From Thermococcus siculi (lineage in GTDB: Archaea; Methanobacteriota_B; Thermococci; Thermococcales; Thermococcaceae), in contig NZ_CP015103.1 in assembly GCF_002214505.1 (NCBI RefSeq), positions 1,674,001 to 1,738,000 of the forward strand: DNA of 64,000 bases, given 5' to 3'. Below, one piece after another: positions 36,277-45,856 of the stretch; within the stretch, counting starts at the first letter, position 1; each line of letters starts with the position of its first letter. The notes beneath the pieces were generated by a model that saw only the letters and a program-made list of their open reading frames with translations, was not told where the DNA came from and did not search any database. Made by a program: the position numbers and the translations under genes.

Positions 36277-36801
36277 TCACTCCTTGGCCGGAATGAGTAG
36301 AGTCCTGAGCTTCGGCGTCCTGGCTCCCAGCTCCCTGTCGAGCATAAAGAGGCCCTGCGGGTTGTCGCCGATGATCTTGAGCTTGTCCACTATGGACTTG
36401 GCGGTCGCTTCTTCCTCCACCTGCTCCTCAACGAACCACTGGAGGAACTGGTAGGTGGCGTGGTCCTTCTCCTCCTGGGCTATCTCGACGAGCCTGTATA
36501 TCGATTCCGTGACGCCGACCTCGTGGAGGTAGACTGCCTCAAAGGCCTTGAGCGGGCTTTCAAAGTTCTGTTTGGGCTTCTCCACCTTCTCAAGCTCGAC
36601 CTTCCCGCCCCTCTCAAAGACGTAGTCGTATATCCTTATGGCGTGGCCCAGCTCCTCCTCGGCCTGGGCCTCCATCCATGCGGCAAAGCCATCGAAGCCC
36701 TTGTCCTTGAAGTAGGCGGCGATTCCGAGGTAGAAGTACGCGGAGAAAAGCTCCTTGGTTATCTGCTCGTTGAGGGCCTTCAACATTCTTTCACCAAGCA
36801 T
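36277..36801 (-). CDS. ftnA: Ferritin
   Basis: 174 residues from the ATG at 36801 (GGTGATGCAG upstream); up to four extra codons are possible. The four-helix ferritin pattern is clear: [81 protein letters not shown]. Diiron ferroxidase Glu and His residues are conserved. It oxidises and stores iron in a 24-mer. First of eight ferritin-superfamily genes up to 51070. Confidence 0.95.
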
Positions 36802-36993
36802 CTGCATCACCATTCATATTTGGTAGTCAAACCTCTTAAGTTTATCCTCGAAACTTAAATTTTTAGAAGCCGTTCAAAATTCCAATTTTTAGGGACATGA
36901 AATTAAATTAGGGAAACCGAAAAGGTTATATTGGCGAACCACATTACCCATCACTGGAAACAAATCCCCATAAATGGGCAGGTGGTGGTGTCA

Positions 36994-42416: not shown

Positions 42417-42917
42417 ATGGGGCTCCTTGGAATCTTCAAGTCTCCAAAGAAAAAAACGCCCCGGAAGGGGCCGAGGGAGGATCTCCCGCCAGAGGTCAGG
42501 AGGGTAGTGGAGGTCCTCAGATCCGTTATCGACCCGGAGACGGAGCTAAACATCGTCGACGAGGGCCTGCTCTACGGCCTGACCGTCGAGGGGGAAAGGG
42601 TCCAGGTCTTTCTCCTCCTTGCGAGATCAACCCCCGAGTGCCACTTCTGCCAGAGCATAGCTGTGAACGTTCAGGGGAGAATACTCAGGGACGTAATTGA
42701 GGTTCTGAGGAAGGAAGGGTTTAAGAGGATTGAAGCGTATAACGAAATCGGGCTTTTGCTCGCGGAATGGGGTGATAAGAATGGTTCCGCCGGAACTCGA
42801 AGAGGGGCTTCCCCTCGAAAAGATGAAGGACTTCTCCCTGGAGGAACTTCTGGGAATGGCCATAAAGGCCGAGATCGGCGCGAGGAGGTTCTACGAGAGC
42901 CTCGCCGAGAGGATTGA
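42417..42917 (+). CDS. DUF59/MIP18-family protein with out-of-frame C-terminal extension
   Basis: 166 residues. The first about 118 residues are a DUF59/MIP18 domain (VVEVLRSVIDPETELNIVDEGLLYGLTVEGERVQVFLLL and a Cys pair in TPECHFCQSI), a putative Fe-S carrier. The normal end would be near LLLAEWGDK (about 42772). Here the frame reads on for about 48 residues of low-complexity, Arg/Gly-rich sequence that overlaps the next gene by 137 bases in another frame. The stop was probably lost by mutation or a one-base indel. Confidence 0.75.
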   Translation: MGLLGIFKSPKKKTPRKGPREDLPPEVRRVVEVLRSVIDPETELNIVDEGLLYGLTVEGERVQVFLLLARSTPECHFCQSIAVNVQGRILRDVIEVLRKEGFKRIEAYNEIGLLLAEWGDKNGSAGTRRGASPRKDEGLLPGGTSGNGHKGRDRREEVLREPRRED

Positions 42918-43305
42918 GATACAAGAACTGAAAGGGAAGATAGAGTGGCTGGCCGGGGAGGAGAAAAAGCACGAGGAGCTTTTGAGGAAGATATACGCCA
43001 ACATGTTCCCCGGAAAGGAGGTCGTATTTCCGAAGGAACACATAGGGCCGGAGCTTCAGCCGGTCGCCAGGAAGCTCCACGGCGCCGAGGACATAATCGA
43101 ACTCATCCGCTGGGCCATGAAGGCCGAGGAGATAGCGGCGAAGTTCTACGCCGAACTGGAGGGCATGGTGGACACCGAGGAGAAGAAGAGGCTCATGAGG
43201 TACCTCAGCGACATGGAGTGGGGCCACTACTACAACCTGAAAGCTGAATACGAGCTGCTCCTTGACTGGGCCATGTACAGCCAGATGATGAACGTCGGGC
43301 CGTGA
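42781..43305 (+). CDS. Ferritin-fold diiron protein (rubrerythrin-like, no rubredoxin domain)
   Basis: 174 residues from the ATG at 42781 with GGGGTGATAAG upstream. Diiron pattern: LLGMAIKAEIGARRFYESLAERI, GEEKKHEELLRKI, RWAMKAEEIAAKFYAEL and DMEWGHYYNLKAEYELL. It is of the same family as 45326-45802 and 50546-51070, with the same length and a C-terminal tail. Probable peroxide or iron handling role. Confidence 0.85.
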   Translation: MVPPELEEGLPLEKMKDFSLEELLGMAIKAEIGARRFYESLAERIEIQELKGKIEWLAGEEKKHEELLRKIYANMFPGKEVVFPKEHIGPELQPVARKLHGAEDIIELIRWAMKAEEIAAKFYAELEGMVDTEEKKRLMRYLSDMEWGHYYNLKAEYELLLDWAMYSQMMNVGP

Positions 43306-43371: not shown

Positions 43372-43815
43372 TCACTCTTTGTACTTCGCTATGAGTTCCG
43401 CCAGCAGTCTGTGGTGCTCCTGCTCGTTCTTAACGAGCGCTTCCGCCAATCCCTTGAAGAGCGGGTGGGTCATCTTCTCGGCCATCTTCCCGTAGGTCTC
43501 TATCATGTCCTTCTCGATCTCAAGGTGCATCTCCGCGAAGCGCTTGACGAGGGCCTTCTGCTCCGGGGAGAGTTCAACGTCCTTGATCTCTTCAATCGGC
43601 CCCCCACTGGAGAGCTTCTCAATCTCCTTCTGGGCATCCATTATGGCCTTCATCAGGTGCTTGTGGATGATTGTGTCAACGGCGATCCTCCCGACTATCT
43701 CCTCGACCTTGGTGTACTTCAACCCGCCCCCCTGTATACGCTTCAAGCCGTCAGTGTAGCTGGAGGCGGCCTTCTTCTCGGTCTCGTAGGCATGTTTAAC
43801 AAGTGGCTCAGCCAT
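43372..43815 (-). CDS. Ferritin-like protein
   Basis: 147 residues from the ATG at 43815 with GGTGATGTCC upstream (two nearby upstream starts are possible). Helical, with His and Glu in IAVDTIIHKHLMKAIMDAQKEIEKL, KRFAEMHLEIEKDMIETYGKM and KNEQEHHRLLAELIAKYKE. The His-Glu spacing fits a ferritin-like fold but no exact family is recognised. The palindrome at 43844-43858 overlaps its promoter. Confidence 0.75.
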   Translation of the reverse strand: MAEPLVKHAYETEKKAASSYTDGLKRIQGGGLKYTKVEEIVGRIAVDTIIHKHLMKAIMDAQKEIEKLSSGGPIEEIKDVELSPEQKALVKRFAEMHLEIEKDMIETYGKMAEKMTHPLFKGLAEALVKNEQEHHRLLAELIAKYKE

Positions 43816-43843
43816 GGACATCACCGGAATAATATGGACATCG

Positions 43844-43941: not shown

Positions 43942-44244
43942 TCATAACTCGACCTTTATACCGGTCTCCTCTTCCACCTCTTTGAAACCATTCTTGAGGT
44001 ATCTGGCCAGCTCCTCGTCAACCTCGAAGAGGGCCGCTAGGAACTCCCCGAAGTGCTCCTTCTCCTCGTTGGCAACGTCGAGGAAGATGTGCCTTATCCT
44101 CTCGTCCTCTATTCCCGCTGCCAGCTGTTCGTAGATGTTTATGGCGTCGAGTTCGGCCTCTATCGCCCAGCGGAGGGCCTGCGCTATCTCGGTCTTGGTA
44201 AGGGGCCTGTCCTTCGGCAGCTCAAAGGGATACTTCGCGAGCAT
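43942..44244 (-). CDS. Encapsulated-ferritin-type (EncFtn) short protein
   Basis: 100 residues. It matches the short, two-helix ferritin-like domain seen fused to the encapsulin of Pyrococcus: TKTEIAQALRWAIEAELDAINIYEQL, DVANEEKEHFGEFLAAL, and a C-terminal targeting-like tail (FKEVEEETGIKVEL). In that fold the diiron site forms only in a dimer. No encapsulin shell gene is seen in the window. The gene is directly downstream of the Dps-like gene with its own TATA (AAGGTTATTAG, about 44276). Confidence 0.8.
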   Translation of the reverse strand: MLAKYPFELPKDRPLTKTEIAQALRWAIEAELDAINIYEQLAAGIEDERIRHIFLDVANEEKEHFGEFLAALFEVDEELARYLKNGFKEVEEETGIKVEL

Positions 44245-44283
44245 GGTATCACCGTTTCAGATTTGTGGACTTTCCTAATAACC

Positions 44284-44835
44284 TTACCTCAGGAACTTCG
44301 AGACGAAGGGGCTTTCCCCGGGCCTTCCGCGCCTGAAGTGACCGCTCGGCTTTCCGGTGAGGAGTTCCTCGAACCATGCCTCGTGCTCTATCTCCTCGTG
44401 GAGTATTGCCAGGGCAAGATCGTAGGTTCTCGGGTCTTTACCCATCGTGTAGTTGCATATCTCCGTATAGACGCCTACCGCACAGCGCTCCGCCTCAAGG
44501 AGAACCTTCAGGATGTTCTCGACGGTGGGTTCCTCGGGGAGGTATGCGTCGCGGCACCAGGCCATGTTCGCGAAGTCCCTTATATCCCTGGGGAGGTCTC
44601 CACCGAGTTCATAAATTCTCGGCACGAGGGCCTCGAAGTGGTTCCTGTCCTCGAGGCGGGCGTCCTCAACGATTTCCTTTATGGTCTCCCCTTCGAGACC
44701 CGCGGAGTGGTTCCTCAGAACGGTGTAGTAGTAATAGGTCGTAAACTCCGCTGCCGCTGCCCTCAAAAGCATGTCCAAAAGTTTCTCAACATCGATTCCG
44801 GCCCGTTCAACGAGCCGTCTGTTGTGTTCCGACAT
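44284..44835 (-). CDS. Dps-like thioferritin (DPSL)
   Basis: 183 residues from the ATG at 44835 (GGTGAAACCT upstream). Pattern: [51 protein letters not shown], cysteines in [10 protein letters not shown] and [14 protein letters not shown], and a final [13 protein letters not shown]. The conserved Cys pair in the third-fourth helix region is that of archaeal thioferritins, which oxidise iron with peroxide and protect DNA. Divergent from the Fur-like gene. Confidence 0.88.
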
Positions 44836-44884
44836 AGGTTTCACCAGGTTTTAGTTATGGCCTCTACTTAATAAACCTTTCTAT

Positions 44885-44901
44885 TTAGAAGTTATTTCTA
44901 A
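44885..44901. promoter_or_regulatory. Operator-like palindrome between Dps-like and Fur-like genes
   Basis: TTAGAA-GTTAT-TTCTAA is a perfect 6-5-6 inverted repeat in the 105-base divergent region. It lies just before the TATA of the Fur-like gene (GCTTATAAAT, 44910-44919) and close to the TATA of the Dps-like gene on the other strand (GGTTTATTAAG), so one bound protein could control both. Confidence 0.45.
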
Positions 44902-44940
44902 TTAGGAAGGCTTATAAATCAGAGAGTTCCACATCTAAAC

Positions 44941-45321
44941 ATGTGGAAGGAAAAAGCCGTTGGATTGCTCAAGGAAAAGGGATACAAGCTGACGCCCCAG
45001 AGGCTGAAGCTGATAGAAGTTTTGGAGGAAATGGGAAGCGACCACCCCTCGATGAGCAGCCTCCTTGACAGGGTTAGGGAGGACTTCCCGACGGTTAGCT
45101 TCTCGACGCTTTACTCCAACCTGCTCACGCTTAAGGAACTCGGTCTCGTTGAGTTGTTCTCAATTGAGGGAGAAACAAGGGTCGAGATCAACACGAAGCC
45201 CCACATAAATCTAATCAGCGGTGAAAGAATCGTTGATGTGGATGACCCGGAGATCATTGAGGCGCTAAAAAAGAGGCTGGGGAGAGAGGTAAAACTCGTC
45301 AACGTTGTTGTCGATGGATGA
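44941..45321 (+). CDS. Fur/PerR-like metalloregulator
   Basis: 126 residues. The winged helix is LKEKGYKLTPQRLKLIEVL and PTVSFSTLYSNLLTLKELGLV. The dimer/metal domain is short; the usual HHH motif is reduced (KPHINLISGE) and the structural CxxC zinc site is missing, so metal sensing may be different. Divergent from the Dps-like gene, in a place where Pyrococcus has a PerR-like gene. Likely controls iron/peroxide genes here. Confidence 0.85.
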   Translation: MWKEKAVGLLKEKGYKLTPQRLKLIEVLEEMGSDHPSMSSLLDRVREDFPTVSFSTLYSNLLTLKELGLVELFSIEGETRVEINTKPHINLISGERIVDVDDPEIIEALKKRLGREVKLVNVVVDG

Positions 45322-45325
45322 AAAA

Positions 45326-45802
45326 TCAGTCCACCTCAAGGCTGAAGTCCTGGTAGTCCATCCATATCCCGGTCTTCATGACCGAATCGTACTGGGCCTT
45401 GAGCAGCTCGTAGTGGGACTTCTCCACCTTCGCCAGCTCTTCAAAGGTTCTCCTAACGCCCTCGTGCTCGGCTTCCTTTGCCGCCCTCTCGTAGAACTCC
45501 CACGTGCGCTTCTCCTGCTCCATCCCTATCCTGACGGCATCCACCTCGCTCAGCTCGCCCTCGTACTTGGGGGACAACTCCTCGAGCATCTCCGTGTTTA
45601 CCGCGGGGAGTTCACAGCGCTCTATGAGGGCCTCAACGAACTTCTCCTCAAAAACGCTCCAGTGTCCGGCCTCCTCCCCCGCCAGGAAGAGGAACATCTT
45701 CTTTGCCCTCTCGTCCCCGGTTCTCCGGGCAAGCTCCAGATAGAACTTCAGTTCGGCCTTCTCAACCTCCAGGGCCAGGGCAAGGGCTTCAAGTTCGTTC
45801 AT
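45326..45802 (-). CDS. Ferritin-fold diiron protein (rubrerythrin-like, no rubredoxin domain)
   Basis: 158 residues from the ATG at 45802 (GGTGATATC upstream). Features: ALALALEVEKAELKFYLELARRTGDE, AGEEAGHWSVFEEKFVEAL, RIGMEQEKRTWEFYERAA and KVEKSHYELLKAQYDSVM. Same family as 42781-43305 and 50546-51070. Its stop faces the Fur-like gene. Divergent from the acetyltransferase at 45857. Confidence 0.85.
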   Translation of the reverse strand: MNELEALALALEVEKAELKFYLELARRTGDERAKKMFLFLAGEEAGHWSVFEEKFVEALIERCELPAVNTEMLEELSPKYEGELSEVDAVRIGMEQEKRTWEFYERAAKEAEHEGVRRTFEELAKVEKSHYELLKAQYDSVMKTGIWMDYQDFSLEVD

Positions 45803-45856
45803 GATATCACCAAAAGACTTTAGGGCTACATGCATAATAACCTTTGGTGGACAGGG

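Follow-up and report, generated by a model that had tools for sequence, protein, structure and literature searches.

A free-standing EncFtn-family protein in Thermococcus siculi and its relatives in the Thermococcales

EncFtn is known as the enzymatic half of an iron store, and in the textbook cases it works only inside the other half, a virus-like protein shell. The stretch of the Thermococcus siculi genome analyzed here (64,000 nucleotides, hereafter the window) encodes a free-standing, 100-residue protein of this family at 43942–44244 on the minus strand. A sequence-only reading of the window had likened the protein to the domain that is fused to the encapsulin shell in Pyrococcus and had left two options: it is cargo for a shell encoded elsewhere in the genome, or it has become free-standing. 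The locus raises the question of whether this EncFtn is cargo at all and, if it is not, what it might do on its own.

The EncFtn gene and its neighborhood

A phmmer search of the PDB with the EncFtn ORF returns 5n5e as the best match (E=4.1e-26) and 2e0z, which is the whole P. furiosus fusion, at E=1.8e-25. With a 32-row profile these two entries are still at the top, and M. xanthus EncC and EncB, N. europaea NE0167, and R. rubrum EncFtn are added. The ORF clears the cut-off of the Pfam EncFtn-like model PF22277 narrowly (28.1 bits vs 27; 27.5 in the genome search) and stays under the cut-offs of the main cargo models of NCBIfam, EncB_fam NF058679 and TIGR04535 (70.3 of 90 and 53.1 of 125 bits). 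The AlphaFold2 model (mean pLDDT 93.7) has helices at residues 17–43, 48–75, and 77–94, that is, two long helices and a short third one, as in 5n5e, and Foldseek places 5n5e chains as its top PDB matches (TM 0.84–0.88). The proposed resemblance to the fused P. furiosus domain is thus borne out both by sequence and by predicted fold. The ORF also scores above the cut-off of the rubrerythrin model PF02915 (31.1 bits vs 22.8), yet it covers only profile positions 3–73 of 137, and it has one ExxH motif and three helices, not a four-helix bundle with two ExxH motifs. Since only half of the profile is matched, the rubrerythrin name was dropped.

The iron ligands were numbered by transfer from E32, E62, and H65 of R. 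rubrum EncFtn, using the alignment offset to 5da5. They correspond to E31, a predicted di-iron ligand (codon at 44152–44154, minus strand), and to E61 and H64, the first and last residues of the ExxH motif (codons at 44062–44064 and 44053–44055, minus strand). In a set of 85 Thermococcales loci, consisting of the window and 84 loci of its relatives, these three residues and Y38 are invariant. R. rubrum EncFtn is described as a ferroxidase in which the three equivalent residues were probed by mutation (PMC5012862). A ribosome-binding-type site, GGTGAT, can be read directly 5' of the gene (44248–44253, minus strand), and an SD-like match precedes EncFtn in 69 of the 85 loci. The median dN/dS for EncFtn genes of the solo form is 0.077 (214 pairs with 0.1<dS<1.5, from 400 sampled). 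The ORF is a real gene under strong purifying selection.

As the earlier reading had stated, EncFtn adjoins a Dps-like gene. This archaeal DPSL gene (44284–44835, minus strand; NF040955 Arch_DPS, 304 bits vs a cut-off of 250) is the next gene 5' of EncFtn, in the same orientation and separated from it by 39 nt; its start was placed by inspection at the ATG at 44835 in preference to the GTG at 44844. Divergent from it is a regulator of the FUR/PerR family (44941–45321, plus strand; PF01475, 76.6 bits), an ORF that falls under the cut-offs of the NCBIfam PerR models. Beyond the regulator is a rubrerythrin-like di-iron protein (45326–45835, minus strand; PF02915, 54 bits) with both E-x6-Y and ExxH motifs, which is a candidate for the positional counterpart of the P. 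furiosus archaeoferritin PF1196. Four motifs and the place of the gene fit the archaeoferritin name; we leave it as a candidate, because the published primers imply protein ends that match no ORF of the loci. On the 3' side of EncFtn are a 150-residue rubrerythrin-family protein (43372–43824, minus strand; PF02915, 25.5 bits vs 22.8), for which the PDB holds no relative at E<=0.01, and an ortholog of P. furiosus PF1190 (42778–43305, plus strand; phmmer E=6e-83), whose product is PDB entry 2fzf (PMC3401498). A cage-type ferritin of 178 residues (36277–36813, minus strand; PF00210, 154 bits at G000:C1:1710376-1710780) lies ∼7 kb from EncFtn, outside the cluster.

The order in most loci is the 169-residue rubrerythrin-like gene, FUR (divergent), DPSL, EncFtn, the 150-residue rubrerythrin-like gene, and the 2fzf-type gene. 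Farther out come an FeS-assembly-type gene and genes that we take to be those of superoxide reductase, rubredoxin, and rubrerythrin, these last three names in the locus order being our own reading of ORFs and profile matches; many loci have lost genes. DPSL lies 39–60 nt 5' of EncFtn in all 30 solo loci in which both genes were measured. In three loci, L041 (G069), L121 (G080), and L122 (G077), the DPSL frame is interrupted or truncated and EncFtn, solo or fused, is intact; the broken frames could be sequencing errors. The distance from the fused gene to the 150-residue rubrerythrin-family gene is 586–590 bp in four of nine measured loci and 115–167 bp in the other five.

The region that separates FUR from the divergently oriented DPSL gene contains, at 44879–44907, the palindrome pair TTCTAAATAGAA / TCCTAATTAGAA, a candidate Fur/PerR operator. 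It has TATA-like stretches on both sides and is conserved in fused and solo loci. The pair occurs at one site genome-wide at <=3 mismatches (backward control, 0), and the window contains four palindrome strand-matches vs 0.33 expected. In solo loci that lack DPSL, some of them on short contigs, the 400 bp before the EncFtn start hold no copy of the operator (0/45); in loci with DPSL it likewise does not lie directly at EncFtn and is placed before DPSL. Because the operator is missing there, we make no claim that this regulator controls solo EncFtn outside DPSL operons. In the DPSL-less loci EncFtn either has its own TATA-like stretch or comes right after the rubrerythrin-like gene, and in three loci without FUR-DPSL (L043, L044, and L046) its ATG abuts the rubrerythrin-like stop codon (TGAATG), an arrangement that suggests translational coupling of the two genes.

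Absence of a shell and distribution of solo and fused forms

The window genome is closed, in one contig of 2,029,167 bases (2.03 Mb), and 99.94% complete. A search with the PF04454 profile for a Family 1 encapsulin gave no match across the whole of it, and tblastn with 10 shell domains (E<=0.01) found nothing in the full window, as the earlier reading had noted, or in the 75 solo loci. This blank does not reflect a blind model, because the same profile recovers 10 shells in 94 Thermococcales genomes (E 4.5e-22 to 1.9e-17, all over cut-off), all of which are EncFtn fusions. Nor does any of the 75 solo EncFtn proteins (92–114 residues) carry a targeting-peptide-like tail. With neither a Family 1 encapsulin nor a targeting tail, the window EncFtn is free-standing and not cargo; by the strict usage, in which encapsulin cargo is fused to or tailed for a genome-encoded Family 1 encapsulin, it falls outside the class. 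The genome-wide search for an encapsulin and a cargo tail had been set beforehand, and it turned up neither, nor an encapsulin with an EncFtn domain of its own that would have assigned the window protein to a different family. Service as cargo for a shell encoded at another site of this genome is therefore excluded at the sensitivity of PF04454.

The window genome is not alone in this respect. EncFtn matches at E<=1e-5 are present in 87 of the 94 Thermococcales genomes, including two incomplete ones (G051 and G053) with weak matches only that resemble rubrerythrin relatives. All 74 genomes of good quality (completeness >=90%, contamination <=5%) have a strong match, and nine of these 74, about one in eight, have a shell. 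There is one strong match per genome, any additional ones being weak or short, and the 85 genomes that match strongly all have either a solo EncFtn or an EncFtn-encapsulin: 75 of the loci are solo and 10 are shell-fused (345–346 residues). Most Thermococcales thus have the solo form, which is no oddity of the window genome, a pattern that the earlier reading could not see. Since nearly all relatives keep EncFtn and most of them have no shell, EncFtn must act in some way other than inside one.

The two forms also differ in sequence. Among loci with DPSL, the median EncFtn identity is 85% (72–100) between solos and 81% (69–99) between fusions vs 61% (52–69) from solo to fusion. For DPSL from the same loci the corresponding values are 92%, 90%, and 89%, with a range of 84–97% from solo to fused loci. 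Positions 59 and 63 of EncFtn are N and E in 70 of 75 solos and R/K/G and A in 10 of 10 fusions; four solos (G002, G079, G084, and G093) have the fused signature. Over residues 59/63/79/82 the solo type is mostly N,E,L,Y vs R/K/G,A,Q,E for the fused type. Judged by these residues and identities, EncFtn has diverged into a solo and a fused type that occupy one genomic place, and the identity gap and the signature at 59/63 put the window protein in the distinct solo type.

A direct trace of change is seen in G079, which is collinear with the fused locus of G075 at 88–91% DNA identity but for two gaps, one of ∼1.08 kb (FUR-DPSL) before EncFtn and one of ∼0.79 kb (the shell) after it. Between these two gaps EncFtn remains intact (94% protein identity; dN 0.026, dS 0.33). 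Its stop codon is followed by a 19-bp relic that is identical to a piece of the shell coding sequence and oriented as that sequence is (L118:3932-3950, minus strand), a length that none of 300 codon shuffles reaches (maximum, 12). In the other 74 of the 75 solos the longest exact match to any fused shell in the 250 bp downstream is <=12 bp, level with a codon-shuffled control (maximum, 13 bp), so that only L118 stands apart. Read from its sequence relic, shell excision is established in this one relative only. The description of the window protein as free-standing is thus supported; that it has become so is not shown for its own lineage. DPSL has been lost as well while EncFtn stayed, as evidenced by a 35-residue DPSL C-terminal relic before the solo EncFtn of G040 (L102:3843-3944, E=1.9e-7).

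The direction of change was addressed with an EncFtn tree of 78 rows and 101 columns, rooted by choice with shell-less outgroups. Thinning at 90% identity removed 51 Thermococcales solos from the tree; L199, a cut domain, and three loci that lack a good EncFtn match (L205, L221, and L188) were also left out. One clade (100/99) holds all Thermococcales fusions and the 18 fusions taken from the class to which a Thermodiscus genome belongs, and solos of Methanosarcina and of further families in the window's class also fall within it. The main Thermococcales solos, including the window type, lie outside this fusion-holding clade. A single clade of all fusions, as expected for one origin, is rejected on the same tree (AU p 0.00025). 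Of the 14 genomes that supplied outgroup solos, 13 were searched with PF04454, their completeness not being stated, and none has a match. These results weakly favor an old solo form, followed by shell gain and several losses; the preference is weak because the alignment has only 101 columns and the root was chosen. In the sample of the Thermodiscus class, PF04454 is found in 81 of 197 genomes, and EncFtn and shell share one frame in 19 of 20 loci, the exception (L205) being a short frame in a short locus. One genome of the window's class, G114, has a solo EncFtn (L188) and, on another contig (L215), a separate PF04454 gene whose 304-residue frame has no recognized EncFtn domain.

Function of EncFtn without a shell

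Taken together, the window protein is probably an EncFtn-family protein that is shell-free by nature, likely a soluble ferroxidase in an iron and oxidative-stress gene cluster. With the family assignment and the conserved ligands as the starting point, the protein would form a ring-shaped decamer with a di-iron ferroxidase center between paired subunits, by analogy with 5n5e and R. rubrum EncFtn; the excised P. furiosus EncFtn domain is reported to be a D5 decamer (PMC8346489). Like its studied relatives, it would oxidize Fe(II), here in the cytosol; no shell is detectable at the sensitivity of the PF04454 model. R. rubrum EncFtn is described as a ferroxidase that does not mineralize iron alone and requires housing in the shell for storage (PMC5012862), so a shell-free ferroxidase with no acceptor would be expected to yield precipitating Fe(III). 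DPSL and a cage ferritin are both encoded in the window genome, and gene order and presence suggest that Fe(III) could pass to DPSL first of all, or else to the ferritin at 36277–36813. Genomes of the fused minority instead carry, at this gene place, EncFtn together with its own shell.

A fixed EncFtn-DPSL partnership is not general, as 44 of the 75 solo genomes lack DPSL; it is present in 10 of 10 fused vs 31 of 75 solo genomes (Fisher p 3.6e-4, kinship ignored). Thirteen solo genomes at least 95% complete have no shell, DPSL, or full ferritin match, a count that keeps apart two further solo genomes with broken or partial ferritin frames and takes the weak PF00210 matches in some of the 13 as rubrerythrin relatives. 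The rubrerythrin-like neighbor is present in 10 of these 13. In such cage-less relatives another ferritin-like protein of the cluster might take the iron, or EncFtn might serve to remove Fe(II) or oxidant instead of feeding a store.

The persistence of EncFtn in these 13 genomes also speaks for a protein that has kept the fold and changed its work, acting as a peroxide- or oxygen-removing di-iron protein or as a metal buffer or chaperone for its neighbors, and not as a ferroxidase that feeds a store. The different residues at 59/63/79/82 in the solo type and the position of the EncFtn start right after the rubrerythrin-like stop in three loci fit this idea, but all ligands of the ferroxidase center are invariant, and R. 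rubrum EncFtn is described as having no peroxidase activity (PMC5012862). We regard such a change as possible, though rather doubtful. It is unlikely that EncFtn stores iron itself and makes a cage unnecessary through iron-driven assembly into larger bodies. Archaeoferritin, from a similar gene cluster, is reported as a monomer that assembles while oxidizing and storing iron (PMC3401498), and ring assembly of EncFtn relatives is described as iron-dependent (PMC11202242); against this, R. rubrum EncFtn alone precipitated at higher iron loading (PMC5012862), and we found no feature in the sequence that indicates higher assembly.

Very unlikely, in our judgment, is service as cargo for a missed shell, which would have to be a very divergent encapsulin or be made from the two Family 4 A-domain proteins (PF08967, ENCP4) of the window genome. 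Their genes are at G000:C1:420718-420954 and 132703-132975 (L222 and L223), and tail-less s-FLPs have been suggested as possibly encapsulated (PMC11202242). However, no PF04454 match exists in this one-contig genome, none of the solo proteins has a tail, and the A-domain genes are 1.3 and 1.6 Mb from EncFtn, one next to a DeoC-like and the other next to a MarC-like ORF (translations judged by eye). Both kinds of protein are among the components described for Family 4, which is reported from all sequenced Thermococcus and Pyrococcus (PMC8346489). That the gene is a degenerating remnant of an EncFtn-encapsulin fusion since lost, as the excision in G079 might suggest, is barely credible given the strong purifying selection, the presence of EncFtn in every good genome, its own ribosome-binding-type site, and its separate sequence type.

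Beyond the shell-free ferroxidase that we prefer, it is possible, though less likely than not, that EncFtn and EncFtn-encapsulin are interchangeable at one locus, the solo form being self-sufficient in iron oxidation, perhaps able to dock on other cages, and perhaps the older of the two, with the shell added later. If true, the encapsulin iron store would have been built onto a working cytosolic protein, and EncFtn would not be dependent cargo. An order with EncFtn in every good genome and a shell in so few is a natural experiment on EncFtn alone. Because close relatives have the solo or the fused form at one and the same site, and because some Thermococcus species are genetically tractable, the genes could realistically be deleted or exchanged. 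The pattern also cautions that not every EncFtn match is encapsulin cargo.

Relation to known systems

Tail-less proteins of the EncFtn fold are already known, and the Thermococcales pattern seems to be a variant that we have not found described. Our search for shell-less EncFtn in the Thermococcales returned no description in the open-access literature, as judged by titles and the openings of abstracts.

The known s-FLPs come from bacteria; they were first called non-encapsulated, and their encapsulation was later called unclear (PMC11202242). The window protein has the traits by which they are recognized, with a length of ∼95–100 residues, no long disordered C-terminus, and no targeting peptide. 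Like the s-FLP of N. europaea NE0167 (PDB 3k6c), it is short and tail-less with the EncFtn fold (Foldseek probability 1.00 to 3k6c). Unlike it, the window protein is archaeal, with only 23–24% identity to 3k6c. For the window protein, the absence of a Family 1 shell, the point called unclear for s-FLPs, has been checked genome-wide.

R. rubrum EncFtn (5da5) and M. xanthus EncB and EncC (7s5c and 7s8t) share the half-ferritin fold and the ExxH di-iron motif, but they are described as having C-terminal targeting peptides and a shell (PMC11202242), and the window protein has neither. The archaeoferritin of P. furiosus (PF1196) is likewise an iron-handling, ferritin-like protein with no permanent cage; it is reported from a similar cluster, with Dps and Fur, and stores iron by iron-driven assembly (PMC3401498). 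It differs in being a four-helix protein of ∼21 kDa, whereas the window EncFtn is a two-helix half-domain.

The closest known system is the P. furiosus EncFtn-encapsulin fusion (PFC_05175; 5n5e and 2e0z). The window protein is 53–54% identical to it over its full length (Foldseek) with the same predicted fold, and Dps, Fur, and the 2fzf gene are described in one cluster there (PMC3401498), as they are in the window. The P. furiosus protein carries a shell domain, whereas the window protein has none and is of the solo sequence type.
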